Shown here in pieces: positions 27,450 to 48,073 of a stretch of 62,668 nt of DNA. The notes beneath the pieces are model-generated. The model had not been told where the DNA came from and ran no database searches. It saw nothing but the letters and a program-made list of their open reading frames with translations. The stretch is from Actinomycetes bacterium (GTDB lineage: Bacteria > Actinomycetota > Thermoleophilia > UBA2241), in the NCBI GenBank assembly GCA_029547745.1, contig JAKPOQ010000145.1, forward strand, positions 1-62,668. The letters are read 5' to 3'. Each line of letters starts with the position of its first letter. The stretch's first letter is position 1. Position numbers and translations under genes: made by a program.

Positions 27450-27522
27450 CGGGCAGGGCGGTCGACGCGCGGGCGACGGCAGTCGTGGCCGACGAGCAGG
27501 TCCAAGGCCTCCCGTGGCGGGC

Positions 27523-28155: not shown

Positions 28156-29086
28156 AGGTGACCTCCCCGGCAGGCGTGACGACGGCGCTCGCCCGGCGCG
28201 CCGCCCAGCACTGGAGGTTCACCGAGACGGGGTTCTGGGTGATGTGCGTGTGCGCCCATTCGATGTTGACGGCCAGGGCGGTGGTGCGGCCGCCGAGGCC
28301 CATGGGGCCGATCCCGAGTTCGTTCGCCGCCGCGAGAAGCTCGTCCTCGAGGGCGGCGACGGCCGGGTCGTCGCTGCGAGTGCCGAGCGGCCGCAGGACC
28401 GCCTTCTTGGCGAGGGCGGCGCACAGGTCGGCGGTGCCGCCGAGGCCGACGCCGACGACTGTCGGCGGGCAGGGCTTGGGTCCTGCCTCGACGATGCACT
28501 CGAGGACGAAGCGCTTGACCGCCCTTACGCCGTCGGCGGGGACGAACATCCTGAGGAAGCTCATGTTCTCGCTTCCCGAGCCCTTGGGCAGGCAGTGCAG
28601 CTTGAGGGCGTCGACGGGCAGGCTGGCGTGGCCGGCGACGGACTCGTAGTGCATCGCCGGCAGGTACCGGCCCGTGTTCGTCCCCGTGTTCTTGCGTGTG
28701 ACCGGGTGGACGGCGTTGGGGCGCAGCGGGTGTTCGAGGGTGGCACGCTCGACGCCCTTCTTCACCGCGGCGCTCACGCGCGCGAGGTTCAGCGGACAGT
28801 CCTCGCCGACCTCGAGCCAGAAGACGACCGTGCCGGTGTCCTGACAGACGAGGTTGTCGTCGCGTTCGGCGACGGCGACGTTCTCCAGCATGATGTCGAG
28901 GAAGCTCCGGGCGCCGGGATCGGTCTCGTTCGCGCGCGCCCGGACCAGCGCCTCCTTGAGGTCCGGCGGCAGCACCTTCAGGGCGCGCAGGTAGGTCTGC
29001 TTGGCGGCCTCTTCCACGGCCACGTAGGCGGCGGTGCAGGCGACGTCGCGGGCCGAGGGCGGGCGTGTGTCGGACGACGGTGGCAT
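28145..29086 (-). CDS. Class I fumarase / tartrate dehydratase-type hydro-lyase, alpha subunit
   Basis: A 313-aa alpha subunit that holds the 4Fe-4S cluster. The three expected cysteines appear in DNLVCQDTG, LHCLPKGSGSEN or its neighbourhood, and GPKPCPPTVVGVGLGG. TRKNTGTNTGRYLPA is a family signature. The ATG at 29086 is preceded by GGAG at 6 nt; ATG 29104 would add six residues but has a poorly spaced site. The gene is co-directional with the beta subunit and oxygen sensitivity is expected. Confidence 0.9.
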   Translation of the reverse strand: MPPSSDTRPPSARDVACTAAYVAVEEAAKQTYLRALKVLPPDLKEALVRARANETDPGARSFLDIMLENVAVAERDDNLVCQDTGTVVFWLEVGEDCPLNLARVSAAVKKGVERATLEHPLRPNAVHPVTRKNTGTNTGRYLPAMHYESVAGHASLPVDALKLHCLPKGSGSENMSFLRMFVPADGVRAVKRFVLECIVEAGPKPCPPTVVGVGLGGTADLCAALAKKAVLRPLGTRSDDPAVAALEDELLAAANELGIGPMGLGGRTTALAVNIEWAHTHITQNPVSVNLQCWAARRASAVVTPAGEVTYGF

Positions 29087-29167
29087 GGGGACTCCGGGTC
29101 GCATGATGGGCAGCGCCTTCAGTGTACGGAGCGAAAGCCGGCGCGTCACTCGCCCGCAGCAGTCCCG

Positions 29168-29640
29168 CTACCCCCTGAAGAGCATCATCAGCCCGCTCAG
29201 CAGGAGGACGGCGGCGAGGAGGCCGCGCACGCCCGGGTCGGCGCGCGGACGGTCAGATGTGAGCCGACGCTGACGCCCGGCACAGAGCCGATCAGCAGGG
29301 AGTCGACCATCCGGAGGTCGACGTTCCCGTAGCCGAGCTGGGCGAGGCCGGTGACGCCGAGCAGGATCGTGGCATGGAAGACGTCTGTGCCGACGACGCG
29401 GCTGGCGGCGGAGGGACCCGCGTGCGGGTGTGAGGTAGGTGACGACCACAACCACGGCCCACAGGGCGAGTGTCGGCCACCAGATGCCGCGCCGCGCCGC
29501 GAGCGCCCGGCTCCGTCAGTGGGGCGTCGACGACCGTCCCGTCCGGGTCGACCTCCTCCGCTGCGACGTACTCAGCCGCGGCGTCCATGGCCGCGCGCCG
29601 GCGCCGCCCTGCCCCCGTCAACGACGGAGCCCTCGGTCAC
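29168..29640 (-). pseudogene. Remnant of a TauE/SafE-type membrane exporter
   Basis: Reading the minus strand, membrane-protein sequence appears in pieces across frames: a lead-in with AAMDAAAEYVAAEEVDPDG, then VVVVVTYLTP in a second frame, then GTDVFHATILLGVTGLAQLG and IGSVPGVSVGSHLTVRAP in a third, and finally RGLLAAVLLLSGLMMLF back in the second. The last pieces match the C-terminal half of TauE/SafE anion exporters. At least two frameshifts and a missing N-terminal half mark it as a pseudogene unless the assembly is wrong. Its place next to cysH fits a former sulfite or sulfonate exporter. Confidence 0.65.
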
Positions 29641-29672
29641 TCCAGGGCGCTCGGGTCGCGATGCTGGGCAGG

Positions 29673-30389
29673 TCAGGCGTTCGCCCCGACCTTCAGCGGG
29701 CGCGTGTGGATGCCGCACTCGCCGCCACACTTGCTGGTCCCGATCCAGCGGCCGTCGCGCTCGTTCGCGCCCGTCGTGATGCGCGTACAAGGTTCGCAAC
29801 CGAGGGAGCGGTACCCCTCGGCGTAGAGGGGGTTCACCGGGATGCCGTTGACGGCGATGTACTGCCACACCTCGCGTTCGTGCCAGGGCAGGATCGGGTT
29901 CAGCTTCAACAAGCCCTCGTCACGCTCTTCGACCTCGAGGTAGTCGGTACGGGTCCGACCCTCGGTGCAGCGCAGGCCGGTGACCCAGCAGGTCACGCCC
30001 ATCTCCTCGATCGCCCAGCGCACGGGCTGGACCTTGAGCAGGTCGCAGCACCTGTCCGGATCGGTCTTGTAGAGGCCGTCGGGGATGTCGGCCGTGTTCT
30101 CGAAGACGCGCGTCTCGGGATATCGGGCGACCAGCTCGCGCATGAACTTCTTGGTCGCGGCCGGCTTGTAGCGCGTGGTGACGACGAAACCGCGGATCTT
30201 CGGGCTCACGCGCTTGGCGAGATCCCAGACCACGACGGAGTCCTTGCCCAGGCTGTTGGCGACGACGAGACCGTCGCCGTGCTGCGCGTAGTAGTGGTCG
30301 ATGAGCTCGAGCGAACGGTCGACCTTTTGTTTGAAGTTCAGGTTGTCGACCAGCTCATGGATCTCGGCGGGTGTCGTCGCGTGCTGCAT
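29673..30389 (-). CDS. cysH: Assimilatory APS/PAPS reductase
   Basis: Reduces activated sulfate to sulfite with thioredoxin. The PP-loop reads NSLGKDSVV (about 45-53). The iron-sulfur type is shown by DPDRCCDLLK, GLRCTEGRTRTD, GCEPCTR and the C-terminal GGECGIH, a set diagnostic of APS reductases with a 4Fe-4S cluster. Length, 238 aa, is normal. The ATG has an excellent AAGGAGGAGAC leader. The 137 bp upstream, between it and the LysR gene, contain a LysR-type palindrome. No ATP sulfurylase or sulfite reductase gene is in the window. Confidence 0.92.
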   Translation of the reverse strand: MQHATTPAEIHELVDNLNFKQKVDRSLELIDHYYAQHGDGLVVANSLGKDSVVVWDLAKRVSPKIRGFVVTTRYKPAATKKFMRELVARYPETRVFENTADIPDGLYKTDPDRCCDLLKVQPVRWAIEEMGVTCWVTGLRCTEGRTRTDYLEVEERDEGLLKLNPILPWHEREVWQYIAVNGIPVNPLYAEGYRSLGCEPCTRITTGANERDGRWIGTSKCGGECGIHTRPLKVGANA

Positions 30390-30422
30390 GTCTCCTCCTT
30401 GCGGGCCGCGGAAGCAGCATGG

Positions 30423-30444
30423 CATAAGATGCAGAACTCTTATG
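30423..30444. promoter_or_regulatory. Candidate LysR-type operator upstream of cysH
   Basis: CATAAGA, 8 nt, TCTTATG: a perfect 7-bp inverted repeat in an unusually AT-rich stretch, 34 bp before the cysH start and downstream of a LysR gene. The geometry fits LysR-family sites of CysB/CysR type. A nearby ATAG/CTAT-rich segment (30445-30465) may hold a second half-site. Confidence 0.55.
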
Positions 30445-31825: not shown

Positions 31826-33016
31826 TCACGGCGAAGGCTCACGGTGCAGGATACGTCCGAGGCGCGTCGGTCTCGGTTGCCGGTGCGCGAGAGCGAGGAT
31901 CTCGTCGACGAACACCTGTGGGTCGCGACGTTCGACGGCGAGGACGCGCGGGTCCTTCTTGTGCGGGGCGATGTCGGCGACGTTTCGAACGCGCTTCAGA
32001 CGGCCGTCGGCGAGCAGTGTCGCGTCGACGGCGGTCGGCGTCCGTCGCGACAGCGTGTAGGCGGGCGTCCCCAGGGCGACGGCCTCACGTTCCATCACGC
32101 CGCCGGAGCCGAGGACGAAGTCCGCGGCAGCGACCAGGCTGACGCCGTCGACGGGGCCGTCGGGCAAGACCAGACCGGGCGATCCAAGGGCGGCGAAGCG
32201 GCGGCGCTGGTCGTCTGAGCGGGCCAGGACGACAAGGGTGAGGTCGGGTCGCGCCGCGAGCTTGGCGACGAGGGTCTCGAACTCTGCCGCCGTCGCATCT
32301 CCGCCAGACACAGGGTGCGAGGCAGCGGCGTCTGCCGCGGCTGTTGCGAGGGGCTCGGTGCCCGTTTGGGCCTTGTGGTCGTCCCCGGGCGGCAGGGCGG
32401 GCGGAGTCCCGGGATACGCACCGTGGTCGGGGTCGTGCGCGTCGCGAGGCGGGCGCACGACCCCGACCACGGTGCGTTCGTCGACGCCGAGCTTGCCGAG
32501 GACGTCCGCATCGGGGCGAAAGTCGTGCAGGTAGTACTCCTCCCTGAAGCCGGGAAAGCGAAACAGCTTGTCGCGCGCGGCGCCGAGGGCGTGAAGCTTG
32601 TGCAACGGCACAGCGTCCGGCACGGCGACCCGGTCTACCAGGCGGACGTTGACGGCGTCGGTGCCTCGAGGGCGCTCGTCGTCGAGCACGGTGAGTCGTG
32701 GCACGCCGAGCGCCCAGGCGGTCAAGACGAAGTCGCCTGCATGGCTGCCCACGGCGACGTCGAAGCGTCCGCTCGAGGCCGACGCGAGCAATTGCGCCGT
32801 GCGGTTGACGAACCCGACCGCGCGCGTCCCGGCGCCGCCGCCGTGATGCTGCCCCGTCAGCACGGCGACGGGGCCCAGACGGCGCATCATGAGGTCGGCG
32901 CTGGCGAAGCGCCGTGCCGTCAGCGTGACGACGTGCCCCTGCTCTTCGAGACGCCGGACAAGCGGCGCGAAGAAGAGGACGTGGGACGAGTCGGTGATGT
33001 CGACCCAGACTCTCAC
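31826..33016 (-). CDS. DUF354 family protein (GT-B-like)
   Basis: A 396-aa member of the DUF354 family, related in fold to MurG and UDP-GlcNAc 2-epimerase. The start VWVDITDSSHVLFFAPLVRRLEEQGHVV is typical, as are VGSHAGDFVLTAWALGVPRL and the C-terminal DFVLGSGGVMEREAVALGTPAY. A low-complexity insert at about 175-230, partly encoded by a long inverted repeat, separates the two halves and is not usual. The gene ends the run that includes the DegT aminotransferase, so it probably belongs to the glycan locus as a transferase or sugar-nucleotide enzyme. Confidence 0.82.
   Translation of the reverse strand: MRVWVDITDSSHVLFFAPLVRRLEEQGHVVTLTARRFASADLMMRRLGPVAVLTGQHHGGGAGTRAVGFVNRTAQLLASASSGRFDVAVGSHAGDFVLTAWALGVPRLTVLDDERPRGTDAVNVRLVDRVAVPDAVPLHKLHALGAARDKLFRFPGFREEYYLHDFRPDADVLGKLGVDERTVVGVVRPPRDAHDPDHGAYPGTPPALPPGDDHKAQTGTEPLATAAADAAASHPVSGGDATAAEFETLVAKLAARPDLTLVVLARSDDQRRRFAALGSPGLVLPDGPVDGVSLVAAADFVLGSGGVMEREAVALGTPAYTLSRRTPTAVDATLLADGRLKRVRNVADIAPHKKDPRVLAVERRDPQVFVDEILALAHRQPRPTRLGRILHREPSP
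32416..32477. repeat. Perfect inverted repeat, 25-bp arms, inside a CDS
   Basis: Arms 32416-32440 and 32453-32477 are exact reverse complements around a 12-nt spacer. They encode the segment VGVVRPPRDAHDPDHGAY of the DUF354 protein, at the edge of its unusual insert. Confidence 0.9.
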
Positions 33017-34189: not shown

Positions 34190-34560
34190 GGGCGTGCCTC
34201 CTTGGTCCGGGTCGGCCGGTCACGCTACCACGGCAGGGGAGGAGCGGCCACCAGAGTCTTCGCGGCGGTGCGATTCGTCGTCGACAAGCACGCGCCGCAG
34301 AGTGAGGGCCGCTCAGTGATCGCGGATCACAGGCCCTGGCTGATCTGGGCGACCAATCTGTCGTCGTTGTGTGTGGCATGAACACCGTTCGTCGTACCTT
34401 CCGGTCCGCGTACTACGTTGCTCCCCGTCCACGGAGCATCGCCAGGGAAGGGTGCCGCGCGGTTCTGGTGTGGAGGGATTCGAGCGGGAATCGCGAGCTC
34501 GATGACGCTGCCGTTCCCGTCGCTGCTGTAAGCTTCATTGAAGCTAGCGGAAGGAGCAGG
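34190..34560. other. Divergent intergenic region between the glycan locus and the catabolic island
   Basis: The 371 bp hold no supportable gene. Two symmetric sites stand out: GTGATC-GCG-GATCAC (34316-34330), of GntR-like shape, and AGCTTCA-T-TGAAGCT (34531-34545) just before the LacI gene. Base composition falls here compared with the glycan locus, which marks the start of the island. Confidence 0.6.
34531..34545. promoter_or_regulatory. Candidate autoregulatory operator of the LacI gene
   Basis: AGCTTCA-T-TGAAGCT is a perfect 7-bp inverted repeat 16 bp before the GTG start, directly ahead of its GGAAGGAG ribosome site. Its sequence differs from the shared TTGACTRCGTATGY element, so autoregulation by the same protein is a guess. 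Confidence 0.4.
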
Positions 34561-35595
34561 GTGCCCAAGCGCCGAGCCAGGACGCACTCGTCATCGATCA
34601 CGAGTCACGACATCGCGAGGATGACCGGGGTGTCGCAGTCAACGGTGTCACGCGCCCTGCGCGGGGACCCACATGTTGCCGCAGCCACGCGCGAGCGCGT
34701 CCTCCAGGCAGCTCGGGAACTGAGATACGTGCCCAGCGATATCGGGCGCAGTCTCTCCACTCGTCTGACGCGTCGCATCGGCATGGTCGTGACCGACGTC
34801 GCGAACCCCTTCTACCCGTACCTCGTCGGACCACTTCACGATGTGCTGGACGAACTTGGCTATCGCATGGTCCTGTTTGCAGAGCGCGGCGAGGCCGGAG
34901 CGCTGGCCGACCGGCTCGCGGGCCAGTCGATCGACGGAGTCGTGCTCACGACTGCGATGCTGGAGTCGGAACTTGCTCGAGACCTGCATGCCCGGGGACT
35001 GCCGTTCGTGTTCCTGAATCGTGTTGCGGAGGGTGTGCCTGGGGATGTCGTGACGGTGGACAATGCGCTTGGTGCGTCACTCGTGGGTCATGAGGTCGTG
35101 CGTCGTGGCCACACCGATGTCGCTGCCATCTTCGGACCGCTAGAGACGAGCACGGGGCGAGACCGTGAGCGGGGCTTCCGGGTGGCTCTCGCGTCTGCGG
35201 GTGTCCAACTTCCCGAGGCTGCGGTTCGTCACGGGGACTACCACTATGACACCGGCTATGAAGGCATGCTCTCGATCATGTCCGGCACCGGCATGCGGCC
35301 GACCGCTGTGTTCTGCGGCAACGATGCCATCGCCATCGGCGCACTGAACGCCGCGCGGAAGGCCGGGGTGGCCGTTCCCGACGAGGTGTCCATCATCGGC
35401 TTCGACGACATCCCCATCGCAGACTGGGAACTCATACAGTTGACGACTGTCCACACGCCTGCGAGCGAGATGGCTGCGTCGGCCGGGCGCCTCCTTGTGG
35501 AGCGCATCGAGGCACGTCCCCGGGTTCTCGAACCCCGCATACGTATCTACGAACCGCATCTCGTCATGCGCCGGACCCTTGCCGACGTCAGTTAG
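34561..35595 (+). CDS. LacI-family transcriptional regulator
   Basis: A 344-aa repressor-type regulator. The N-terminal HTH reads SHDIARMTGVSQSTVSRALRGDPHV, followed by the hinge AARELRYVPSDIGRSLSTRLTRRIGMVV and a periplasmic-binding-protein-like core (VVTDVANPFYPYLVGPL, then FCGNDAIAIGALNAARKAGV and IIGFDDIPIADW). The GTG start has GGAAGGAGC in front. It opens the catabolic island, and three promoters inside the island share an element whose core, TGnnTRCGTAnnCA, has the CG-centred symmetry of LacI operators. The effector is unknown. Confidence 0.92.
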   Translation: MPKRRARTHSSSITSHDIARMTGVSQSTVSRALRGDPHVAAATRERVLQAARELRYVPSDIGRSLSTRLTRRIGMVVTDVANPFYPYLVGPLHDVLDELGYRMVLFAERGEAGALADRLAGQSIDGVVLTTAMLESELARDLHARGLPFVFLNRVAEGVPGDVVTVDNALGASLVGHEVVRRGHTDVAAIFGPLETSTGRDRERGFRVALASAGVQLPEAAVRHGDYHYDTGYEGMLSIMSGTGMRPTAVFCGNDAIAIGALNAARKAGVAVPDEVSIIGFDDIPIADWELIQLTTVHTPASEMAASAGRLLVERIEARPRVLEPRIRIYEPHLVMRRTLADVS

Positions 35596-35610
35596 GGCGT
35601 TTCTTCTCGC

Positions 35611-35639
35611 TTGACTACGTATGCAAACCGTGTCAAGAT
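35611..35639 (+). promoter_or_regulatory. Promoter with shared LacI-like operator, ahead of the PHP gene
   Basis: TTGACT (35611-35616), 17 nt, then CAAGAT (35634-35639). The element TTGACTACGTATGC recurs at the two other island promoters. TGACTACGTATGCA fits TGnnTACGTAnnCA, so a bound repressor would cover the -35 box and spacer. Confidence 0.6.
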
Positions 35640-35706
35640 TCGGGGCGCCAGCGACGCCCTTGCTCATGTGCCGGAGGCGTCGACGTCGAAGGTGACAGGG
35701 GGCGTC

Positions 35707-36822
35707 ATGAGTGGAGGTCGGAGATGCCGCAACTGGGTGGCGGGCTGCGCCATCGCTGCCGTATCACTCGGGGTTTGTCTCTTTGCGCCGGCGGCGGTGC
35801 GGGCGAGCGGGTACGAGCACTATTTCGGCGATGTTCATGCGCACACTGCAGTGTCCGATGGATCGGGCACACCAGCGGGGGCGTTCTGGTCGGCGCGCGC
35901 GTCGGGGCTTGACTTCTTCGTGGTCACCGACCATGCAACGATGATCTCGGCTAAGGAATGGCGTGAGACAGCGGCGGCGGCTGCTGCTGCGACGGAGGCC
36001 GGTGGCTTCGCCGCGCTGACGGGCTTCGAATTGAATTGGTACTACGATCACGTGAATGTGCTCGCGGTGCCATCCCACCTGACGCCAGGCGCGGTGCCGC
36101 ACGCACGTATGGCGAGCGCAGCCGACTACGAGGATGTGGTCGCGTCCATTCCGGGTGCCATCGGCCAGTTCAACCATCCCAGATGGGGTGAGTGGAGCAC
36201 TCCGGCGTGGACCATGGGTGGTGACGACTTCGAGGACTTCGACTATTGCACGCCCGCGCGCGACGCGGCAATGGAGTTGATCGAAGTCTATAACCACGAC
36301 TGCCTGCTCGACTACCACTCGTCGTACGAGTCCAGCTACGTCAAGTGTCTGGACAAGGGATGGCATGTCATGCCGTCTGCTGGTGGCGACACTCACTCGA
36401 TCGTTTGGGACAACGCTCTGCTTCCATACGAGTACCGGACCGTTCTGCTTGCCGGTGAGCTCACTCCAGTCGCGCTGTCCGAGGCAATGAAGGCGCACAG
36501 GGGATACGCGACGGTCGACCGGGACCTAAGGATCTCCTTCTCTGTCGACGGAGCGATCATGGGCTCCGTCGTTAGGGCGGGCACGACTCACAGCGTCTCC
36601 GTCCACGTGGATGATCCGGACATATTGGCTGTCAACGATGAGCTACGGGCGCTCGAGCTTGTGGGCTCGGGAGGCGTCGTGCTCGCGAGTGTGGACGTCT
36701 GCGGGCATGCCGCATCTTGGGCCGGACAGGTGTCCGAGCAGGACTCATCTTGGGCGTACTTGCGTGTGACGGCTGCCGACGGGGTCGCAGCTTGGACGGC
36801 CCCGGTCTGGTTCGAGGGTTGA
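35707..36822 (+). CDS. Secreted PHP-domain metal-dependent phosphoesterase-like protein
   Basis: A 371-aa protein with a signal peptide (1-33, cut near AVRA/SG), so it acts outside the membrane. The PHP metal ligands are visible: FGDVHAHTAVSDG (H44, H46), VTDHA, TGFELNW, QFNHPRW and GGDTHS. A C-terminal beta-rich domain of about 90 residues follows the catalytic part. PHP proteins hydrolyse phosphoesters or related bonds; this one may act on a phosphorylated or esterified substrate before uptake. The ATG is preceded by AGGGGG at 5 nt. It follows a promoter with the shared operator. Confidence 0.85.
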   Translation: MSGGRRCRNWVAGCAIAAVSLGVCLFAPAAVRASGYEHYFGDVHAHTAVSDGSGTPAGAFWSARASGLDFFVVTDHATMISAKEWRETAAAAAAATEAGGFAALTGFELNWYYDHVNVLAVPSHLTPGAVPHARMASAADYEDVVASIPGAIGQFNHPRWGEWSTPAWTMGGDDFEDFDYCTPARDAAMELIEVYNHDCLLDYHSSYESSYVKCLDKGWHVMPSAGGDTHSIVWDNALLPYEYRTVLLAGELTPVALSEAMKAHRGYATVDRDLRISFSVDGAIMGSVVRAGTTHSVSVHVDDPDILAVNDELRALELVGSGGVVLASVDVCGHAASWAGQVSEQDSSWAYLRVTAADGVAAWTAPVWFEG

Positions 36823-37255
36823 GACGAGTAGGTCCAAGGACCGTTCCGGGCCGCTTGGCGTCGTGTCTTCTTGGTCGTCTTCATGCGCGCTGCAGGTGAC
36901 TGTGTACGACGGAGTCGCGCGGCGGCCGAGCGCCGGACGAGTCTGGGACGGTCGATGGGTTCGATCGGGAACACTGTGCTGCGCTTCGCGATCATCGCTT
37001 GCGAAGCGCTCTGGGACGTCACCGTGCGCCAGCGCTGGGGCATCTTCGGCGCTGCGAGGGTCGGTCACCGGGAAGCGCAGCAGGCGGCTCCGATGAGCGT
37101 GGCCGCGCCTCGGACGACCGTAGATTCGATCGGTGCGTCGGTACTCTCAGGAGGGAGGTGGCGCGGGTGACGCCGGATACGTGTGATAGGCGACCGATCA
37201 CGCGCGCGGCCGACGGGTGCGGCAGCGAGCGGAGAAGCGACAGGGGTGCAGGTAA
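36823..37255. other. Intergenic stretch ahead of the aldolase operon
   Basis: No gene is supported in these 433 bp; short open frames lack ribosome sites and family features. A hairpin with 9-bp arms (36981-36989 with 37001-37009, 11-nt loop) is present. I found no copy of the shared operator here, so whether the downstream operon has its own promoter or reads through from the PHP gene is open. Confidence 0.55.
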
Positions 37256-38746
37256 GTGACGATTCGTTTTAGGCAGCGGCTTGTGGCTGGTGAGCCGCTC
37301 ACCGGCCTCATCGTCAAAATGCCGGCGGCGGCGCAACTGGACATGTCTGCCGCCGCCGGCTTCGACTTCGCGATCATCGACCTAGAGCACGGCGTGCGGG
37401 ACCTCGCGCTGTTGGAGGGCGACATGCGCGCCGCCGTGGCGTGCGGGCTGCCGACCCTGGTTCGTGTGCCTACCGGCGATGCTCCCACCGTCCTCGCCGT
37501 GCTGGATGCTGGTGCGGCCGGCGTCGTGGTGCCGCACGTGTCGAGCGTCACCGGCGCCGCTGACGCTGTGAAGGCCGCGTCATACCCGCCACGAGGACGT
37601 CGGAGCTTCGCTCTGACCACTCCCGCGGGTCGGTGGGGTGCGACCACGAACGACGAACACCTCCGGGTAGCTGCCGAGTCGGTTTGCGTGGTCGTGCAGC
37701 TCGAGGATCGGGAGGCGGTCGCTGCGGCCCAGGACATCGCTGGCGTCGAAGGCGTGGATGCGCTGTTCATCGGGCTCAACGACCTGGCTCTCGATGTCGT
37801 AGGCCGTGTCGCCGGTGACGCGCCCGCGGTAGTCGCAGCCCGCGACGCCGTGCTCGAGGCCGCGGCAACGGCTGGGAAGCCGGTGATGACGGTAGTCAGT
37901 ACTCCGACCGAAGCCGAGCGCTGGAGGGGATTAGGGGCAGAGGTAGCCATCTATGTCGCCCCCTCACTCACGCTCGCAGCGTTTCGGGCGGCGGCACGAT
38001 CGCTTCCGGACGACCACGCTCCCGATCCTACGCTGCCGGTGGTCCTTGTGCCGGGCATGCTTGAGGACGGCCGTGTTTGGGATGGCATCGTCGAGCGGCT
38101 CGGTGTGCGGCTGAGCTTGGTTCCCGCACGTTTAGATCTTGACGACAGTATCGAAGAGATGGCTGACAGCCTTCTTGCCTGTGCGCCACCCCGCTTCGTG
38201 CTGGTCGGGCATTCATTGGGCGCCGTCGTGAGCCTGGAAGCCGCTCTGCGTGCGCCGCAGCGCGTTCAGGCTCTTGCCGTGCTCAACGCTGACAGCCGGC
38301 CGCCGATGGACGAGCTGTCGACGTCGTGGGCTCGCCTCCGTGAACGCTTCTCGCAAGGCCCTGGCGCGATTGGGGAGTGGGTGGCGTCGGTCCTGCCCGG
38401 TGCCGGGGATCCGGTTGCCGGACTGGCGAGGCGTATGGCCGAAGATGTAGGTCGCGAGGCAGCACTGCGGCAGCTCGAGGCCCAAAGGTCCCGGACCGAC
38501 ATGCGCGGTCGCCTCGCGGGGGTGCGGTGCCCGGTTCTCGTGGTGTGTGGCGAGTGCGATGTCGTTTCACCGCCCGACCGACAGCAAGAGCTCGCCGCAG
38601 TCATCCCTAACGCACGGCTGCATACGCTCGCTGGCTGTGGGCATCTCGGCCTACTCGAACAGCCCGATCAAACCGCAGCGGCGCTTGGCGCGTGGCTTGG
38701 CCTCGAGCCCGATGCGTCTGGCGTCGCATCTGCCGAAAGGACGTGA
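37256..38746 (+). CDS. Fusion of HpcH/HpaI-type aldolase and alpha/beta hydrolase
   Basis: A 496-aa two-domain protein. Residues 1-250 are an HpcH/HpaI/CitE class II aldolase: IDLEHG (D42, E44, H45), LVRVP (R70), VVVQLEDREA and GLNDLA. Residues 258-485 are an alpha/beta hydrolase with VVLVPGM, nucleophile S320 in GHSLGA, D435 in ECDVVSP and H463 in GCGHLG. Both active sites look complete. I know of no standard protein joining them. One enzyme could open a lactone or ester and the other cleave the resulting keto acid. Start is GTG with a modest site; the stop is 4 bp before the HisD-like gene. Confidence 0.85.
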   Translation: MTIRFRQRLVAGEPLTGLIVKMPAAAQLDMSAAAGFDFAIIDLEHGVRDLALLEGDMRAAVACGLPTLVRVPTGDAPTVLAVLDAGAAGVVVPHVSSVTGAADAVKAASYPPRGRRSFALTTPAGRWGATTNDEHLRVAAESVCVVVQLEDREAVAAAQDIAGVEGVDALFIGLNDLALDVVGRVAGDAPAVVAARDAVLEAAATAGKPVMTVVSTPTEAERWRGLGAEVAIYVAPSLTLAAFRAAARSLPDDHAPDPTLPVVLVPGMLEDGRVWDGIVERLGVRLSLVPARLDLDDSIEEMADSLLACAPPRFVLVGHSLGAVVSLEAALRAPQRVQALAVLNADSRPPMDELSTSWARLRERFSQGPGAIGEWVASVLPGAGDPVAGLARRMAEDVGREAALRQLEAQRSRTDMRGRLAGVRCPVLVVCGECDVVSPPDRQQELAAVIPNARLHTLAGCGHLGLLEQPDQTAAALGAWLGLEPDASGVASAERT

Positions 38747-38750
38747 GACC

Positions 38751-40034
38751 GTGGCTCGATACGTGAAGAGGGCTGCTCCGCGGCAGTCTGTCGACAGCGA
38801 GGTCGTGCGCGAGACCGTCGCCGGCATCATCGCGGACGTCGCCGTGCGTGGTGAGGACGCCGTGCGGGAGTACTCGCGCAAGTTCGACCACTGGGATCCC
38901 CCCACGTTCAAGGTAGACACTGGGGAGATCGAGCGCGCCAGAGCTGCCATCGACCCCGACGTGCTGAGGTCCATGGAGTTTGCTCACGCTCAGATCGAAA
39001 GGTTCGCGCATCTGCAACGCGAGAGTATGCATGAGTTCGAAGCTGAGACGCTGCCCGGGGTCTTCCTCGGGCAGAAGCACATCCCGGTCCAGAGTGCCGG
39101 TGCGTACGTGCCCGGCGGCAAGTACCCGATGCTGATGTCCGCGCAGATGAGCATCCTGACGGCGAAGGTGGCCGGCGTGCCGCGTGTGGTGGGCTGTGCT
39201 CCTCCCTACGAAGGTAGCGGTATGTATCCGGAGATGCTGTGGTCGATGGCCCTGGCGGGTGCAGACGAGATCTGGTGCGTTGGCGGCGTGCAGGCTCTCG
39301 CGCTGATGGCTCACGGCAGTCCTGGCTACGACCCGGTCGACCTTATCGCCGGTCCCGGAAACATGTATGTGGCCGAGGCCAAGCGGCAACTCTTCGGCAA
39401 GACGGGCATCGACTTGCTCGCCGGTCCTACCGAGATCCTCGTCGTCGTCGATGACAGCGCCGACCCAGTCATTGCGGCTGCCGACCTGCTCGGGCAAGCC
39501 GAGCATGGCCCGACCTCGCCGGCAGTCCTGGTGTCTCTATCCGAGAGGATGGCGCGACGCGTCATGGAGGAGGTGGATCGCCAGTTGACTCAACTGGCGA
39601 CGTCGGAAGTGGCGCGGGTGTCGTGGCGCGATTATGGCGAGGTCGTGATCGTGAGCGACCGAAGCGAGGCGGTCGACCTGTGTGACGAGTATGCGCCAGA
39701 GCATCTCGAGGTACAGACGGCAGACGCCGAGTGGTACCTCGACAACCTCAACGCATACGGCACGCTGTGCGTGGGCGAAGAGGCGACCATCACCTTTTCG
39801 GACAAGGCCATCGGCACCAATCACACACTGCCGACGGGCAAGGCCGCACGGTACACGGGTGGCCTCTGGGTGGGCAAGTTCCTCAAGACTGTGACCTATC
39901 AACGCTGCACCAGGAAGGGCGCTCTGACCGTCGCGCCACATGCTGCCGTGCTCTCTGACGCGGAGCACTTTGCAGGACACGCTGCCACCGCGCGGCGCCG
40001 TATCGACAAGTACACCACGGCTGGGGAGATGTGA
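38751..40034 (+). CDS. HisD-like zinc/NAD dehydrogenase of a catabolic paralogue group
   Basis: A 427-aa member of the histidinol dehydrogenase family. Zinc ligands (Q249 and H252 in GQAEHGP, D351, H410) and the catalytic pair E317-H318 in EYAPEHLE are all present, so it should oxidise an alcohol in two steps to an acid with NAD. No other his gene is near and the gene lies inside a LacI-controlled catabolic operon. HisD paralogues in such places include HpsN, which oxidises dihydroxypropanesulfonate. The substrate here is unknown; a polyol or amino-alcohol is likely. The GTG start has GAAAGGA at about 10 nt. Confidence 0.88.
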   Translation: MARYVKRAAPRQSVDSEVVRETVAGIIADVAVRGEDAVREYSRKFDHWDPPTFKVDTGEIERARAAIDPDVLRSMEFAHAQIERFAHLQRESMHEFEAETLPGVFLGQKHIPVQSAGAYVPGGKYPMLMSAQMSILTAKVAGVPRVVGCAPPYEGSGMYPEMLWSMALAGADEIWCVGGVQALALMAHGSPGYDPVDLIAGPGNMYVAEAKRQLFGKTGIDLLAGPTEILVVVDDSADPVIAAADLLGQAEHGPTSPAVLVSLSERMARRVMEEVDRQLTQLATSEVARVSWRDYGEVVIVSDRSEAVDLCDEYAPEHLEVQTADAEWYLDNLNAYGTLCVGEEATITFSDKAIGTNHTLPTGKAARYTGGLWVGKFLKTVTYQRCTRKGALTVAPHAAVLSDAEHFAGHAATARRRIDKYTTAGEM

Positions 40035-40035
40035 C

Positions 40036-41157
40036 ATGAAGCGGTCGCTTCTCACACCGCCCATAGTGGCCGACCGGTCCAACCCGTCCGACTTCAGCAT
40101 CTCTGTGCGCTCGTACGGACCGGTGGCCGCTGGCGGTAAGGGCCGCAGACGACAACCGATGCGTGGCTTCGAGGACACCTATACGGACATCGTTGACTAC
40201 ATTGTGCGTATCACGGCACGGATCTGGGATGAACAGGACGTGGGCTATCTGCACCGTTGCTATGCCGAAGACATCCGTGTGGTCACGGAGGATGGCGTGC
40301 GTGTGGGTCGGGCCGCAATCATCGAGGGTGTACTGGAGCACCTGGCTGCGTTCCCCGACACACGTGTCCTTGCGGACGAGATCATCTGGGCGGGGGACGA
40401 GGACGTAGGCTTCGCCACCTCGCATCGCAACATCACTATCGGCCATCACAGCGGACTCGCAGAGCTCGGTGTGCCGACCGGGAAGAAGAGCGTGGTTTGG
40501 GGTATCGCCAACTGTGTCTCCATCGAGAACTACATCTTCGCTGAACACGAACTCACAGACCTCGTCACGTTCTATCGTCAGCTCGGTCTCGACCCGGTCG
40601 AGACCGCCCGCCAGGGTGCCGCCGATCTGTCGCCCAATGACTTTGAGGGACGCGTCGCTGCGGCCTCCGACTGGTTCACTGGTAACGCTGAACCTCTAGC
40701 CATGGGGCCAGTGCCTGACGGCTTCGACATCACCGACTTCGTCACTCGAGTCGCGCACCATGCCTGGAACTGGCGGAATCTCAGCGTGGTGGACAAGGCG
40801 TATTCACCCACGGTCCGCTGGCATGGACCCTCGGGCCGGGATTTCTACGGGCGCCGCGAACTCAAGGGATTCATGCTCTCGATGCTCGGGTCGTTCCCCG
40901 ACCTCAATTACCACATCGATGATTTGTACTTCATCGGTAACGAGCGCGAAGGCTTTCGGGTCGCGGTCCGGTGGACGATGTTGGGCACGCACCGAGGCGG
41001 GGGCCCGTTCGGTCAGGCGACAGGTCGCCGGGTGCATCTTTGGGGCATCACTCAACAGACAGTCGAGCGAGGACTGATCGTCGAGGAATGGACACTGTTC
41101 AACGAGTTCGAGGTGCTCGAGCAGCTCTGTTGCGACGAGCCGCTCATACGGGAATGA
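40036..41157 (+). CDS. Tandem SnoaL-like (NTF2-fold) protein
   Basis: A 373-aa protein with two NTF2/SnoaL-like domains, at about 45-190 (IVRITARIWDEQDVGYLHRCYAEDIRVVTEDG) and 220-365 (RVAHHAWNWRNLSVVDKAYSPTVRWHGPSG). Each has the helix-plus-barrel pattern seen in ester cyclases, isomerases and dehydratases of this fold. The N-terminal 40 residues are unrelated. It is 1 bp behind the HisD-like stop and overlaps the UroD-like start as ATGA. A role as isomerase or dehydratase of a pathway intermediate is plausible, but catalytic residues cannot be named. Confidence 0.78.
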   Translation: MKRSLLTPPIVADRSNPSDFSISVRSYGPVAAGGKGRRRQPMRGFEDTYTDIVDYIVRITARIWDEQDVGYLHRCYAEDIRVVTEDGVRVGRAAIIEGVLEHLAAFPDTRVLADEIIWAGDEDVGFATSHRNITIGHHSGLAELGVPTGKKSVVWGIANCVSIENYIFAEHELTDLVTFYRQLGLDPVETARQGAADLSPNDFEGRVAAASDWFTGNAEPLAMGPVPDGFDITDFVTRVAHHAWNWRNLSVVDKAYSPTVRWHGPSGRDFYGRRELKGFMLSMLGSFPDLNYHIDDLYFIGNEREGFRVAVRWTMLGTHRGGGPFGQATGRRVHLWGITQQTVERGLIVEEWTLFNEFEVLEQLCCDEPLIRE

Positions 41158-42329
41158 AGCCCAGGGAGCGACTGCGAGCGGTGCTGGAACACCGCGAGCC
41201 CGACCGTGTGCCGGTCGACTTCGGCAAGCACATCGGTTCGTTCCATCGCGATGCCTACGTTACATTGCGTGCCGCCCTGCCGGAACTCAATCTGCCCCTC
41301 GAACCCGCGATCCTTGATCGCATGGCGCAGAACGTGCGCTTGGATGAGGTCCTCTGCCGGCGTCTGGGGATCGACTTTCGGTGGGTGGTGCCCAATTGGA
41401 TCGGAGTCTGCGAAACGCTGACCGGAGATGTGCCTGGCTATCGGGACATGTGGGGCGTGCCGTACGTTTTCGTGGCGACCGGGTCGCACTATGTGCCTGT
41501 TGGCTCGCCGCTTGGCGCCGAGGACCTCGATCTAGCTGACATCGACTCTTACCCGTGGCCGGACCCAGACGACCCGGGCATCGTCGCCGGTCTTGCCGGA
41601 CGCGCCCGGCGTTGGCATGAGGACGCCGAAGTCGTCGTTGGCGCGGATGGAATCAAGACCGGCGTGTTGCAGACAGCAGCCCAACTGCGAGGCTACGATA
41701 AGCTCTTTCTCGATCTTGCCCTGCAACCAGCACTGGCGCGTGGGCTGTTCGAGCGGGTGACGGAGATCTCCCAGCGGATGTACCGACGGTACCTTCGCGA
41801 AGTCGGCCGGTTCGTCGATATCGTGGTCGTCACTGACGATCTCGGCACGCAGACGTCCCTCATGGTGTCGCCAGCCATGTTTCGCACCTTCATCAAGCCG
41901 AACCTCGCGGCCCTGATCGCGACGATCAAAAGCGAGACAGATGCCGCTGTGCTTCTGCATTCCGACGGCGCTATCGAGCCCATCATCCCGGACTTGATCG
42001 AGATCGGCGTGGACATCCTGAATCCCGTGCAGACGACGGCGAGAGGCATGGATGATACGCGCGGGCTGAAAGAGCGCTACGGACGGGATCTCTGCTTCCA
42101 TGGTGGTATCGATGTGCAGCATGTGCTGCGCGACCTCAGCCCCGACGAGATCGAAGTGGAGGTGGCCCGGCGCATCGCCGACCTCGGGACTGACGGCGGT
42201 TACATCCTCGCGCCATGCCACAACATCGACGGTGGTATCTCGCCGGCCCAGACGCTGGCAATGTTCGATGCCGCGCGCGAGCACGGTGTCTACCCGCTCG
42301 GGTCGGCGAAGGAGAGTGAAGCGTCGTGA
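41154..42329 (+). CDS. UroD/MtaA-family methyltransferase-like protein
   Basis: A 391-aa protein of the uroporphyrinogen decarboxylase superfamily, in the branch used by corrinoid-dependent methyltransferases (MtaA, CmuA N-terminal domain, O-demethylases) rather than haem synthesis. Marks are MKPRERLRAVLEHREPDRVPV at the start, VVTDDLGTQTSLMVSPAMFRTFIKP, LHSDGAIEPIIPDLIEIGVDILNPVQ and FHGGID near the end. The island also encodes a free corrinoid protein at 47341, which would be its partner. It would move a methyl group onto or off cobalamin; direction and substrate are not known. Confidence 0.88.
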   Translation: MKPRERLRAVLEHREPDRVPVDFGKHIGSFHRDAYVTLRAALPELNLPLEPAILDRMAQNVRLDEVLCRRLGIDFRWVVPNWIGVCETLTGDVPGYRDMWGVPYVFVATGSHYVPVGSPLGAEDLDLADIDSYPWPDPDDPGIVAGLAGRARRWHEDAEVVVGADGIKTGVLQTAAQLRGYDKLFLDLALQPALARGLFERVTEISQRMYRRYLREVGRFVDIVVVTDDLGTQTSLMVSPAMFRTFIKPNLAALIATIKSETDAAVLLHSDGAIEPIIPDLIEIGVDILNPVQTTARGMDDTRGLKERYGRDLCFHGGIDVQHVLRDLSPDEIEVEVARRIADLGTDGGYILAPCHNIDGGISPAQTLAMFDAAREHGVYPLGSAKESEAS

Positions 42330-43420
42330 CGGACAGTGCGATGGTGTCAGTCGACCATGACGAACTGCGGGGATACGTGGCGGCGCTGCTGGCTGGCGCT
42401 GGCATGACTCCCCCTGACGCGAAGCAGATGGCAGATTGTCTCGTTGAGTCCAACCTGTGGGGCGTGGATTCACACGGCGTGCTGCGGGTCCCGATCTACG
42501 TCGAGCGCCTGCGTAGCGGTGCCATGAACCCGCGGCCGCGTCTCGACATCGTAGCGGAGCATGGCGCCGTGGCCGTCCTCGAAGGGGATGGCGGCCCGGG
42601 CTTTCTGGCGGGGCTGGCCGGCATGCGTCACGCGGTGACGCATGCCGGCGAGCATGGTGTCGGCGTTTGTGCGGTGCGTGACAGCAATCACTTCGGGGCA
42701 GCCGGCCTCTACGCCCGCGCCGCTTTGGACGAGGGCATGATCGGCATAGCGATGACCAACGTGATGCCGAACATGGTCGCTCCCGGTGGTTCACGACCGG
42801 TGGTCGGAAACAACCCGCTCGCCGTGGCTGTTCCTGCGCCCACACCCTTCCCGATCGTTCTCGACATCTCGCTCTCGGCGGCCGCGGGCGGCAAGCTTCT
42901 ACTGGCCAGCAAGAGGGGCGAGAAGATCCCGCTTGACTGGGCCACGGATGCGGAAGGCCACCCGACGGACGACCCGGACGCGGCGTTCGCCGGATTCCTG
43001 CTCCCCATCGCGGGAGTGAAGGGTCTGGGCCTTGCCTACATCGTCGACATCCTGTGTGGCGTTCTCGCGGGCGGAGCCTTCGGCTGGGACGTCAAGAGCA
43101 TGTACGCGTACCCGAAGGAGCGGAGCGAGACGGGACACTTCCTCGTGGCGCTCGACATCGGGGCCTTCATGGACCGCGCCGAGTTCGATGCGCGCATGGC
43201 CCGTTACTGCGCGAGCGTCAAGGGTTCACCGTTGTGGGACGACACGGCGGAGATGCTGCTCCCTGGCGAGCTCGAGCATCGCACCGAGGTGCGACGGCGT
43301 GCGGAAGGTATCCCACTGCCCCGGGGACTCTATGACGAGCTGCTCGAACTCGGTCACGGCTTTGCGGGGCTCCCATCGCTCCATCGGTTGCGTGTCGTAT
43401 CCACCCCGTCGAGCCGATGA
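42326..43420 (+). CDS. Ldh2/malate-L-lactate dehydrogenase family oxidoreductase
   Basis: A 364-aa NAD(P)-dependent dehydrogenase of the malate/L-sulfolactate/ureidoglycolate group. Typical blocks are DSHGVLRVPIYVERLRSG, AVRDSNHFGAAGLYARAA, GNNPLAVAVPAP, LDISLS and the later GVKGLGLAYIVDILCGVLAGGAF. It starts with GTG overlapping the UroD-like stop. The enzyme would oxidise a 2-hydroxy acid to a 2-keto acid, a good substrate for the aldolase encoded earlier in the operon. It is the last plus-strand gene before the convergent SDR. Confidence 0.9.
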   Translation: MTDSAMVSVDHDELRGYVAALLAGAGMTPPDAKQMADCLVESNLWGVDSHGVLRVPIYVERLRSGAMNPRPRLDIVAEHGAVAVLEGDGGPGFLAGLAGMRHAVTHAGEHGVGVCAVRDSNHFGAAGLYARAALDEGMIGIAMTNVMPNMVAPGGSRPVVGNNPLAVAVPAPTPFPIVLDISLSAAAGGKLLLASKRGEKIPLDWATDAEGHPTDDPDAAFAGFLLPIAGVKGLGLAYIVDILCGVLAGGAFGWDVKSMYAYPKERSETGHFLVALDIGAFMDRAEFDARMARYCASVKGSPLWDDTAEMLLPGELEHRTEVRRRAEGIPLPRGLYDELLELGHGFAGLPSLHRLRVVSTPSSR

Positions 43421-43498
43421 TCGTCCGGCTGGTCTAGCCGGGCCACAGGGTGTTCGCAGGGGAGATGCGGCATGCGGCCTGCTTGAGCCACGCGGCGG

Positions 43499-44275
43499 TC
43501 ACCAGGCGGTCCAACCGCCGTCGACATGCAACACGGCGCCCGTGATGAGACCCGCGGCCGGGGAAGCCAGAAAGAGCACTGCGTCGGCGACGTCCTGTGG
43601 TTCTCCCAGGCGGGCGACGGGGATGCGTCGTAGCACGTCGTCCAGGAACGCCGTGTCCTCGAACATGGGCTTCGTCAGCGGCGTGTCGATGAACGTGGGC
43701 GCTACGGCGTTGACGCGGATCCCGCGTGACGCCCACTCCACACCCAAGGCTTTGGTATAGCCGTTCACAGCGTGCTTGCTACAGCAGTATGCGGATCTCC
43801 CGGGGTAGCCGACCGAACCCATCTGCGACGAGACGTTCACGATGCTCCCCTCACGAGCAGCCGCAAGCGCATGTCTTCCGAACGCGCGGCAGCACAGTGC
43901 CGTTCCGAAGACGTTGACCTCCATGACCAGGCGGAAGTCATCAGGCGCCTGCGCTTCGGCCGGTCCTGTGCGGTTCAGCCCGGCGGCATTGACGAGGATG
44001 TCGATGGGACGCCAGGACCACGCGCGCCGAACGGCTTGGTCGACTTGGTCGTCGTCGCGGACGTCGGCCACAGCCGCCGTAGCCTCGGCGCCTGCGGCTT
44101 GTGCTTCGGCCACGGTCTGTGCAGCCGCTTCGGCCGACACGTCGAGAACCGTGACGGCAGCACCGGACCGAGCAAACGTCAGAGCGCAAGCGCGACCGAT
44201 GCCGCCTCCGCCGCCGGTGACGAGCGCGTGGCTCCCGTGCAGATCGACCTCAAGGCGGGGCTGCTCGTGTTCCAT
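43499..44275 (-). CDS. SDR-family oxidoreductase
   Basis: A 258-aa classical SDR. The cofactor loop is VTGGGGGIGRA, the NAG-type motif reads VNAAG, and the catalytic set S-Y-K shows in NVSSQMGSVGYPGRSAYCCSKHA. The acidic residue after beta-2 (VLDVSAEAA) suggests NAD rather than NADP. It ends the minus-strand operon that starts at 48985, 44 bp after the fucose-isomerase-like gene, with its own GGAGGG site. It probably oxidises a sugar or polyol hydroxyl. Confidence 0.92.
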   Translation of the reverse strand: MEHEQPRLEVDLHGSHALVTGGGGGIGRACALTFARSGAAVTVLDVSAEAAAQTVAEAQAAGAEATAAVADVRDDDQVDQAVRRAWSWRPIDILVNAAGLNRTGPAEAQAPDDFRLVMEVNVFGTALCCRAFGRHALAAAREGSIVNVSSQMGSVGYPGRSAYCCSKHAVNGYTKALGVEWASRGIRVNAVAPTFIDTPLTKPMFEDTAFLDDVLRRIPVARLGEPQDVADAVLFLASPAAGLITGAVLHVDGGWTAW

Positions 44276-44319
44276 GGCGTCCCTCCGGGGAGAATGTTGG
44301 CTGAGGAAGAGTGAAGCGT

Positions 44320-45747
44320 CTAGAGAAGCGTCTGGATGGGGATGTCGCACAGCTGAGCTACGTAGGTGAGCGTCTCGGTCACGTCGCCTGCCACGCCGCT
44401 GATGTGGTTGGCCGAGAGCTGTTGGACGAGCTCCTCCGGGTCTCCACGCAGGCGTACGAAAGCCGTCGGCAGCGGCAGGCGGCTTCGGGCGCGGTCGAAG
44501 AGATCAGTGGTCTCAGGGGCTGGGGTGACGATCTCGCCTGGGGCGACGAGCAGATGGTACCGGCCGTCCTTGCGTGCCAGGCGAGCGAGCGTCACCGGAC
44601 CAGCGGCGGCGCGAAAGTAGGTGGTCGCGCCGCCGCCCTTGCGATTGGCGGGACGCAACTCGATGGCTCCCATGTTCCTCGCGGCGTCATCCGAGCGCGC
44701 CGCGTACCAACCGCAGAAGGCGCCGCAGTTGGGTAGGCATAACAAGTCGCCACTGTCGATGATGTAGCTCACGTCGGCGAAGAAGGCCGGCGTGCCCTGT
44801 GAGGCCAGCTTGAGCATCTGCATCGTGAGAGCGCCGTCAGCGTCGGCCTCGCAGGCGAGCATGAACGGCTCACGCGCTTCCCCCGCTACCGCCGGAGTCC
44901 CCATGGGAAGGAGGCAAGCCGAAAGACACTGTGGAACGAAGTCCGTGCTCAGTTCAGGCATGCACTTGACGGCGGCGAAGTCGAGCCCTTGCTCGTCGAC
45001 GAGGTCAAGGGTCGCCAGGTAGCAGCGAACCTGCAACTCGAGGCGCTCGGGGGTGAGGGAAGAACAGTCGTAGGCGATCGAAGCAGCGGTCTCTTCGAGC
45101 CAGTCGACAATGGCAGCGACGCGATCCCCCTCGACCCCGTCAGCGCGGCGCACGATCTCCAGCTGGTCGAACGTCTGGACGTCGACGCCAAAGAGGCGTC
45201 GCCATTGCATCGGATCGACACTGCCGGTATCGATGCCCAGGGATCGGCCGCCGAACAGGCCGCATGAGCTGCCGCGGAGGCGACGGACGACGGCGGCCGC
45301 GCGCGCGAACGGCAGCAGCCGTTCGCGCGCGCGGCCGCCGAGCTCTTCACGCACTCGGATGTGCGGCCAGCCGAGTTGGTCGAGCGCCCCGCCTGCGCCC
45401 AGAAGACCGACCATGCCGTGCGTGGAGGGGTCTCGATTGGACACGAGCGCTGTGGGCAACCCCGCACGCTGGACGCCACGCACGACAAGATTGGGCGGCG
45501 CCCAGCAGGGGGTGTGCGCCAGGAAGGCTTCCGCTCCATCCGCCACGAGTCGGTCGACCTGCTGGTCGACCTCGGTTCGTGTTCGGGCCACGTTGTCGGA
45601 GGCGACGACCTCGAGGGGCCACTGGCGCAGCTCCCGCAAGAGGTCCTCGTGGCGTGGAACGGTCATCGCTGCGAAGACCCGCTCCCACTCGAAGGGACGG
45701 TCGTCCCCGAAGGTCATCACGCCGACTTTGGGCGGTGCGACACTCAC
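44320..45747 (-). CDS. L-fucose/L-arabinose isomerase-like protein
   Basis: A 475-aa protein of the fucose/arabinose isomerase superfamily (COG2407-like). The N-terminal half has the Rossmann-like domain with VGVMTFGDDRPFEWE and AFLAHTPCWAPPNLVV. The C-terminal part holds KCMPELSTDFVPQCLSACLLP and CEADADGALTMQMLKLASQG, where catalytic acid and metal ligands are expected. It would interconvert an aldose and ketose. Residues around GGRARERLLPFARAAA are encoded by a perfect inverted repeat. The GTG start overlaps the second SDR's stop. Confidence 0.85.
   Translation of the reverse strand: MSVAPPKVGVMTFGDDRPFEWERVFAAMTVPRHEDLLRELRQWPLEVVASDNVARTRTEVDQQVDRLVADGAEAFLAHTPCWAPPNLVVRGVQRAGLPTALVSNRDPSTHGMVGLLGAGGALDQLGWPHIRVREELGGRARERLLPFARAAAVVRRLRGSSCGLFGGRSLGIDTGSVDPMQWRRLFGVDVQTFDQLEIVRRADGVEGDRVAAIVDWLEETAASIAYDCSSLTPERLELQVRCYLATLDLVDEQGLDFAAVKCMPELSTDFVPQCLSACLLPMGTPAVAGEAREPFMLACEADADGALTMQMLKLASQGTPAFFADVSYIIDSGDLLCLPNCGAFCGWYAARSDDAARNMGAIELRPANRKGGGATTYFRAAAGPVTLARLARKDGRYHLLVAPGEIVTPAPETTDLFDRARSRLPLPTAFVRLRGDPEELVQQLSANHISGVAGDVTETLTYVAQLCDIPIQTLL
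45291..45340. repeat. Perfect inverted repeat, 23-bp arms, inside a CDS
   Basis: Arms 45291-45313 and 45318-45340 are exact reverse complements around AGCA. They are entirely within the fucose-isomerase-like gene and much more GC-rich than the rest of that gene. Confidence 0.92.
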
Positions 45748-46535
45748 GGCAGCTCCTCTAGTCGTGGCGGAAAGCCCTGGATCATGCGTCCGCCATCGGG
45801 ATAGATGGCCTGCCCGGTGATGAAGCTGGCGTCGTCACTTGCGAGGAATGCCGCGACGGCGGCGACTTCCTCGCAAGTGCCTACGCGGCCGAGCGGTAAG
45901 CGTTCCAAAAGCTCGCGCTTTTTGGCCTCGTTGTGGACCACGACCTCCATCAGCTCGGTCCTTATTGGTCCTGGCCCGATGCAGTTCACACGGATGCCGT
46001 GTCGCCCGAGCGCGATGGCCATCGACTTGGTCAGTTGCGTCACGCCTCCTTTGGCTGCGCAATACGGGACTTGGTCGCCGAGAGCGAGGACCGCCATCAC
46101 TGACGACAGGTTGATGATGCTGCCTCCTTGGCCCTGCCGGACAAGGGTCCGGGCTGCGGCCTGGCTGAGCAGGAAGGTGCCCTTGAGGTCGACTCCTATG
46201 ACGCGGTCCCAATCCTCTTCGGTCGTTGCGAGAAAGCTCGCGGCGTGGTTGAGCCCGGCGTTGTTGACGACGATGTCCAGTCGACCGAACTCCTCCACGG
46301 TGCGGCAGACGAGGTGCTCTACCTCGGGCTTGCGACTGACGTCGCAGCCCGTGAACGCGATGCCGGCCTCGCGTCCACCAAGGTCGGCGACGACCTGCGC
46401 ACCTCTGCGCGGATCCCGCGCAGCCGCCATCACCTGCGCACCTTCATGCAAGAAACGCTCGGTGATCGCCCGTCCGATGCCGCGGGTGGCACCAGTGACG
46501 ATCGCGACCTTTGCTTGAAGTCCCATGGCCGTCAC
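45744..46535 (-). CDS. SDR-family oxidoreductase, second copy
   Basis: A 263-aa classical SDR with VTGATRGIGRA, VNNAG, and the catalytic S-x-Y-x3-K in INLSSVMAVLALGDQVPYCAAKGG. The arginine after the second strand (AAARDPRRGAQ) is compatible with NADP. The GTG start overlaps the creatininase stop; ATG 46526 is an alternative. Two SDRs plus Ldh2 and HisD give this island four dehydrogenases, enough to oxidise several positions of one polyhydroxylated compound. Confidence 0.92.
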   Translation of the reverse strand: MTAMGLQAKVAIVTGATRGIGRAITERFLHEGAQVMAAARDPRRGAQVVADLGGREAGIAFTGCDVSRKPEVEHLVCRTVEEFGRLDIVVNNAGLNHAASFLATTEEDWDRVIGVDLKGTFLLSQAAARTLVRQGQGGSIINLSSVMAVLALGDQVPYCAAKGGVTQLTKSMAIALGRHGIRVNCIGPGPIRTELMEVVVHNEAKKRELLERLPLGRVGTCEEVAAVAAFLASDDASFITGQAIYPDGGRMIQGFPPRLEELP

Positions 46536-47344
46536 GCGACGGGCGGCTTCGTACCGACGGGGTAGCGGCTCATGATGTCTCCGATCAGGGCACTGATCTG
46601 GTCCACCACTGTCATGACCAGCTGCTCGCCCTTCTCTCTGGTGGCTCTGGTCGGGTCGCCGATCACGCCGTTCTCGAGCTCTTTGTATTCGGGCCGGGCG
46701 AAAGTGCCTTCGAAGTGGTACATCATCCCAGGCTGGGGGACTTGGCCGGGGGCGATGACGAAGCGGTGATCCACGAGCGGCTGGCCGCCGCCCTTGGTCG
46801 CCTTGCCCATGTCGATGTATTCGGGGTACAGGTAGAGTCCCATCGAGGTCTCGGCTTCATCGGCGTGCCACATGTAGTCCTCGAGGACATGCCTGTCGTC
46901 ACGCAAGAAGTCGTACCAGTGCAACGACAGTGTGAAGTAGCCTTCGAGTCCGAGCTTGTGGACGGCGACAGTCGTCGTCGATACCTGCCCGTGTGCCGAC
47001 AGCAGGATGAACTTGTTGTAACCGGCGACCGCGGCGCCCCGGACGATGTCGGTGATGAGAGCGATATGAGTTTCATAGGAGAGAGGGATGGTGCCCGGCA
47101 TGTGCCAGTGGTGATAAGGATGCGAGCCGTACATGGGGCAGGGGAGGACCATGGCGCGGGTGCGCTCCGCGACGCGAGTGGCCAGCCCGATTGCGTTGAA
47201 GTCGTCGACCCCGGCAGGGCTATGTGGACCGTGTTGCTCGATTGAGCCGAGCGGCAGGATGGCAAGATCACATTCCTCGCGCGCGTGACGGCGGATCTCG
47301 TCGGCGGGCAGGGTCGCCCAAGACGGGTGGGGCGTGTTGTTCAT
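46532..47344 (-). CDS. Creatininase-family amidohydrolase
   Basis: A 270-aa metal hydrolase of the creatininase family. Metal-site motifs are LPLGSIEQHGPHSPAGVDDF (E36, H38), LSAHGQ where many members have NGHGGN, and WHADEAETSM. The family opens cyclic amides or lactams and includes MftE-type peptidases, so here it may open a lactam or lactone intermediate. It overlaps the corrinoid-protein gene upstream and the SDR downstream by 4 bp each, showing tight translational coupling. Confidence 0.9.
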   Translation of the reverse strand: MNNTPHPSWATLPADEIRRHAREECDLAILPLGSIEQHGPHSPAGVDDFNAIGLATRVAERTRAMVLPCPMYGSHPYHHWHMPGTIPLSYETHIALITDIVRGAAVAGYNKFILLSAHGQVSTTTVAVHKLGLEGYFTLSLHWYDFLRDDRHVLEDYMWHADEAETSMGLYLYPEYIDMGKATKGGGQPLVDHRFVIAPGQVPQPGMMYHFEGTFARPEYKELENGVIGDPTRATREKGEQLVMTVVDQISALIGDIMSRYPVGTKPPVA

Positions 47345-48057: not shown

Positions 48058-48073
48058 TTCAGGTCCTCGCAGT

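Follow-up and report, generated by a model that had tools for sequence, protein, structure and literature searches.

The window, i.e., the whole 62,668-nucleotide stretch of actinomycete DNA analyzed here, contains an uninterrupted reading frame with a GTG start and a TGA stop that encodes a protein of 496 residues, in which an HpcH/HpaI aldolase is followed by an α/β hydrolase. The fusion gene is the first of a five-gene coupled operon, with a LacI-family regulator gene upstream and an SDR dehydrogenase gene downstream on the opposite strand. The features are as follows:

34369–51117 (region, no strand): putative acquired catabolic island of ~17 kb; lower third-position GC, empty site in a relative
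34369–35595 (+): LacI-family regulator; its counterparts in other fusion modules are 53% (L150) and 47% (L160) identical
37256–38746 (+): aldolase-hydrolase fusion gene; from profile search, residue check and fused homologues
38751–40034 (+): histidinol-dehydrogenase-fold enzyme, HpsN-like ('hisD'); starts 4 bases after the fusion stop
40036–41157 (+): double SnoaL-like 'ester cyclase' protein; separated by 1 base from the stop of the gene before it, with a 49% identical counterpart in L150
41154–42329 (+): URO-D family (MtaA/CmuA-like) methyltransferase; its start overlaps the stop of the gene before it (ATGA)
42326–43420 (+): Ldh_2 protein (malate/L-lactate/sulfolactate dehydrogenase family); GTGA overlap
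43499–44350 (−): SDR dehydrogenase; 51–54% identical to the SDRs of fusion modules L150 and L160
Fusion protein: HpcH/HpaI aldolase (residues 1–250), linker (~251–260), α/β hydrolase (~261–482), short C-terminal tail

Both halves of the protein score above the curated Pfam cut-offs, i.e., PF03328 (HpcH_HpaI) over residues 25–225 with 94.5 bits (E = 7.5e-27; cut-off 25) and PF12697 (Abhydrolase_6) over residues 262–476 with 62.3 bits (E = 1.3e-16; cut-off 26.3), which together with the open frame bears out the original prediction of one 496-residue frame joining both domains. The active-site residues that it named are likewise all in place: D42, E44 and R70 in the aldolase half, and the Ser-Asp-His triad S320, D435 and H463 in the hydrolase half. 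The aldolase half additionally presents H45, with E150 and D176 as metal ligands, and all six aldolase residues are invariant in an alignment of 24 rows (the window aldolase and 23 from other genomes). E150 and D176 align with the metal ligands E145 and D171 of the aldolase SwHKA (PMC10099721), and Arg70 and His45 have been reported as important in HpaI (PMC8560999). Neither domain reaches an NCBIfam equivalog cut-off, the scores being 129.9 bits against 368.8 for TIGR02311 (4-hydroxy-2-oxoheptanedioate aldolase HpaI) and 64.6 bits against 255.85 for TIGR02427 (3-oxoadipate enol-lactonase PcaD). The predicted structure is confident for the TIM-barrel aldolase half only; the hydrolase half is poorly predicted because it has few aligned relatives, and we therefore make no claim about the domain arrangement.

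Homologues were surveyed in ~1,800 genome searches, which partly overlap. A second full-length fusion was found in G964, a genome of the same class and a different family (E = 1.2e-94, 42–43% identity over residues 13–482), with no internal stop and with a TGA as its natural end. In G1377, from the genus of G964, the last ~25 aldolase residues are in frame with the hydrolase up to the contig edge, and this fused stretch is 61% identical to its G964 counterpart. Both domains in one frame with the aldolase first, in a module with LacI, HpsN-like and SDR genes, are thus seen in the window, in full in G964 and in part, at a contig edge, in G1377. The linkers of the three fusions are similar in length (about 20 residues) and differ in sequence. 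Translation of a separate hydrolase from an internal start was considered and rejected, as none of the three shows a Shine-Dalgarno-like stretch at the joint, ahead of the hydrolase part. Both domain trees are consistent with the fusion having arisen once: in the hydrolase tree, a branch with a support of 79 has the three fused proteins on one side, and in the aldolase tree a constraint grouping the two fused rows is not rejected by the AU test (p 0.79).

Chance is excluded because each half has tiny-E matches of its own and the whole protein has a full-length fused homologue, and the fused homologues in independent assemblies of other species rule out a private assembly error. It had been anticipated that relatives with two genes would betray an assembly error or a lost stop codon; distant relatives do carry separate adjacent genes, but such an artifact does not follow, as two relatives of the same class are fused. 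That a lost stop or an assembly error merged two genes, for which the two separate genes in many relatives could be cited, is thus exceedingly improbable in view of the same fusion recurring in independent assemblies at 42% identity to the window, and with a similar linker length. Judged from sequence, the fusion is confirmed as genuine, with both active sites intact.

Several further matches were dismissed. A match in G770 that extends past the junction is an ordinary aldolase followed by a chance alignment across two stops, and long open frames around aldolases in relatives (e.g., L095 and L152) are GC-rich upstream read-through and not fusions. Phage collections gave matches to single halves only and no fusion, and a viral collection scanned with the hydrolase half gave no relative.

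The metal loop of the aldolase bears on a different reading, in which one domain is dead or only structural, e.g., with the aldolase holding an oligomer together while the hydrolase alone works. The loop reads G-L-N-D in the window, compared with G-P-x-D in nearly all relatives, and L174-N175 is replaced by E-T in the G964 fusion; these unusual residues would favor a dead domain; however, the metal and catalytic residues are all conserved in both fusions, which makes it improbable.

The genes at 34369–51117 have a third-position GC of ~0.72, compared with ~0.9 on both flanks. In G005 (L162), a genome of the same family as the window, the flank order is the same (fumarase pair, PAPS reductase, LysR, DUF354 and DegT, then GHMP kinase and RtcB), but the DegT and GHMP-kinase genes are adjacent and the island is absent. 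Because of the drop in third-position GC and the empty site in G005, the island is best read as an insertion in the lineage of the window. The native flank at 26557–30425 (−) encodes a ComA-like phosphosulfolactate synthase, a fumarase-type pair and a PAPS reductase-domain protein. The DUF354 protein (31826–33016, −) is 43% identical to its G005 counterpart, compared with 70–78% for its neighbors, and seems to hold an odd inserted stretch.

The three fusions share a module of LacI, HpsN-like 'hisD' and SDR genes, and two of the three also have the double SnoaL gene. The G964 module (L150) comprises LacI (53%), a cupin, a sugar-type ABC transporter, SnoaL (49%) and SDR (51%), and its fusion lies between two HpsN-like genes (51–52%); no cupin gene was found in the window. 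The product of 38751–40034 scores 388 bits as sulfopropanediol/DHPS dehydrogenase HpsN and 255 bits as HisD, and we therefore read it as a catabolic alcohol-to-acid dehydrogenase. A sulfonate pathway was considered on account of the HpsN-, sulfolactate-dehydrogenase- and sulfoquinovose-isomerase-like genes; the last two score far below their family cut-offs, and the idea is retained as a lead.

Other genes of the island are recorded here as observations. A CehA/McbA-family PHP metallohydrolase gene (35611–36822) lies between the LacI regulator gene and the fusion. The URO-D methyltransferase (41154–42329) occurs in the same island as a corrinoid (B12-binding) protein (47341–48057), which suggests a corrinoid-dependent demethylation step. 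The genes at 44320–48985 (−) encode a protein of the fucose-isomerase fold that weakly resembles sulfoquinovose isomerase, a second SDR, a creatininase-family hydrolase and an SMP-30 lactonase, and possibly constitute a second catabolic unit.

Members of other phyla encode the aldolase and the hydrolase of this module separately, in neighboring genes that often overlap and that occur in both orders. The hydrolase gene comes before the aldolase gene on plasmids of Rhizorhabdus, Priestia, Pantoea, Klebsiella and Deinococcus; the two mostly overlap, and their usual setting is a module that also has LacI, SDR, cupin, ester cyclase and 'hisD' genes. Thioclava, Vibrio and Salinivibrio have the order of the fusion, with the aldolase first, and here the pair lies next to a cupin gene and 2-oxo/3-oxo-tetronate genes. 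The partner aldolase of one separate-gene pair is SwHKA itself (Swit_5035 of Rhizorhabdus (Sphingomonas) wittichii RW1; PDB code 6r62); its gene (L059, 9719–10474) overlaps an α/β hydrolase gene homologous to the second half of the window protein, and a cupin gene follows. That genes fused in one lineage are neighbors elsewhere strongly indicates that the two enzymes cooperate. In the aldolase tree, most plasmid-pair aldolases fall in a clade apart from the fused ones, and the pairing has therefore arisen on more than one occasion, or was re-established by exchange; its recurrence with different aldolases argues for functional coupling.

Three modules (L066, L098 and L143) contain the hydrolase apparently without an aldolase nearby, so that one step does not have to follow directly on the other, and lineages differ in which gene of the pair comes first. 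Both observations would fit a single pathway in which the hydrolase acts early, on an ester or glycoside-type side group or on a thioester, and the aldolase late, the fusion securing only co-expression and stoichiometry. We consider this less likely, as the reduced clusters of Thioclava, Vibrio and Salinivibrio keep the hydrolase-aldolase pair as a unit even where SDR, hisD and SnoaL are missing. Three such reduced clusters (L064, L065 and L136) combine cupin, aldolase and hydrolase genes with tetronate genes of the otnK/otnI type and a transporter gene, and are a lead to the pathway products.

HpcH/HpaI aldolases bind a divalent metal that coordinates a 2-oxo acid, and catalyze retro-aldol cleavage to pyruvate or hydroxypyruvate and an aldehyde. 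In α/β hydrolases, the serine nucleophile opens an ester, a lactone or a C–C bond next to a ketone. We favor, as the probable reading, a bifunctional enzyme that catalyzes linked steps in a module under LacI control that breaks down a sugar- or polyol-like compound, and predict the aldolase half to be a class II, metal-dependent, pyruvate-type HpcH/HpaI enzyme. The SDR and the HpsN-like dehydrogenase would oxidize a secondary and a primary hydroxyl group, before or after the core steps. In the simplest scheme that links the two activities, the hydrolase would open an ester or lactone, or cleave a β-keto C–C bond, of the oxidized intermediate, and would thereby yield a 4-hydroxy-2-oxo acid; from this the aldolase would release pyruvate or hydroxypyruvate and an aldehyde, which the HpsN-like enzyme could take to the acid. 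The fusion would hold hydrolase and aldolase at a ratio of 1:1. Both the substrate class and the order of steps are what we infer from this arrangement. The original prediction is thus supported in part: the genuine fusion with two intact sites is borne out, and a lactonase or esterase activity, consecutive steps and a constrained intermediate are putative.

SwHKA, structures of which have been solved with hydroxypyruvate, is a trimer of dimers assembled via a swapped eighth helix (PMC10099721). In the fusion, the hydrolase begins directly behind this helix, the last of the aldolase, and a hexamer carrying six hydrolases is therefore plausible, provided that the domain-swapped trimer of dimers of the family is kept. 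A more specific proposal, which we advance tentatively, is that the fusion is the dedicated bifunctional enzyme of an undescribed, widespread pathway (LacI, cupin, SDR, HpsN-like dehydrogenase, double SnoaL, hydrolase and aldolase) for a sugar- or polyol-like compound, in which a labile 2-oxo acid may be passed from hydrolase to aldolase within one hexamer, and that this pathway may be the native context of SwHKA-type aldolases.

The fusion was not known as a described architecture in the original prediction, and the open-access full-text literature likewise yielded no account of an aldolase-hydrolase protein of this kind or of its operon, the only relevant papers being those on SwHKA and HpaI. 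The operon spans Bacillota, Deinococcota and Pseudomonadota, and no described function for it was found in that literature. Through the fusion, a conserved operon is linked to SwHKA, a biocatalyst that has been crystallized and studied with hydroxypyruvate, and assays of the missing pathway are made easier by a single protein that is expected to have both activities.

Compared with known systems, the fusion shares with SwHKA the fold family, the conserved D-x-[E/Q]-H motif, the arginine, and the metal-binding glutamate and aspartate. SwHKA is, however, a stand-alone enzyme of a different aldolase subclade and has Q43 where the fusion has E44, and the window aldolase is thus not of the SwHKA type, if that type is defined by membership of the SwHKA subclade and a Q at position 43/44. 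E. coli HpaI (PDB code 4b5s), GarL and YfaU are colinear with the fusion over ~240 residues and have the same active-site residues, but are unfused, and the window aldolase scores far below their equivalog cut-offs. Hydrolases of the PcaD, RutD, BioH and carboxylesterase type (PDB code 4uhc) share the fold and the GHSLG/D/H triad, whereas the window hydrolase is below all of the equivalog cut-offs. No aromatic ring-cleavage genes were recognized in the fusion operon. The PcaDC and PcaCD fusions (NCBIfam NF051488 and NF051487), the models of which matched the window protein through its hydrolase domain, differ in that the partner is a carboxymuconolactone decarboxylase and not an aldolase, but they also join an α/β hydrolase to the enzyme of a neighboring catabolic step; both domain families of the window protein are well known, and the fusion of a hydrolase to a neighboring catabolic enzyme has a precedent in these proteins.
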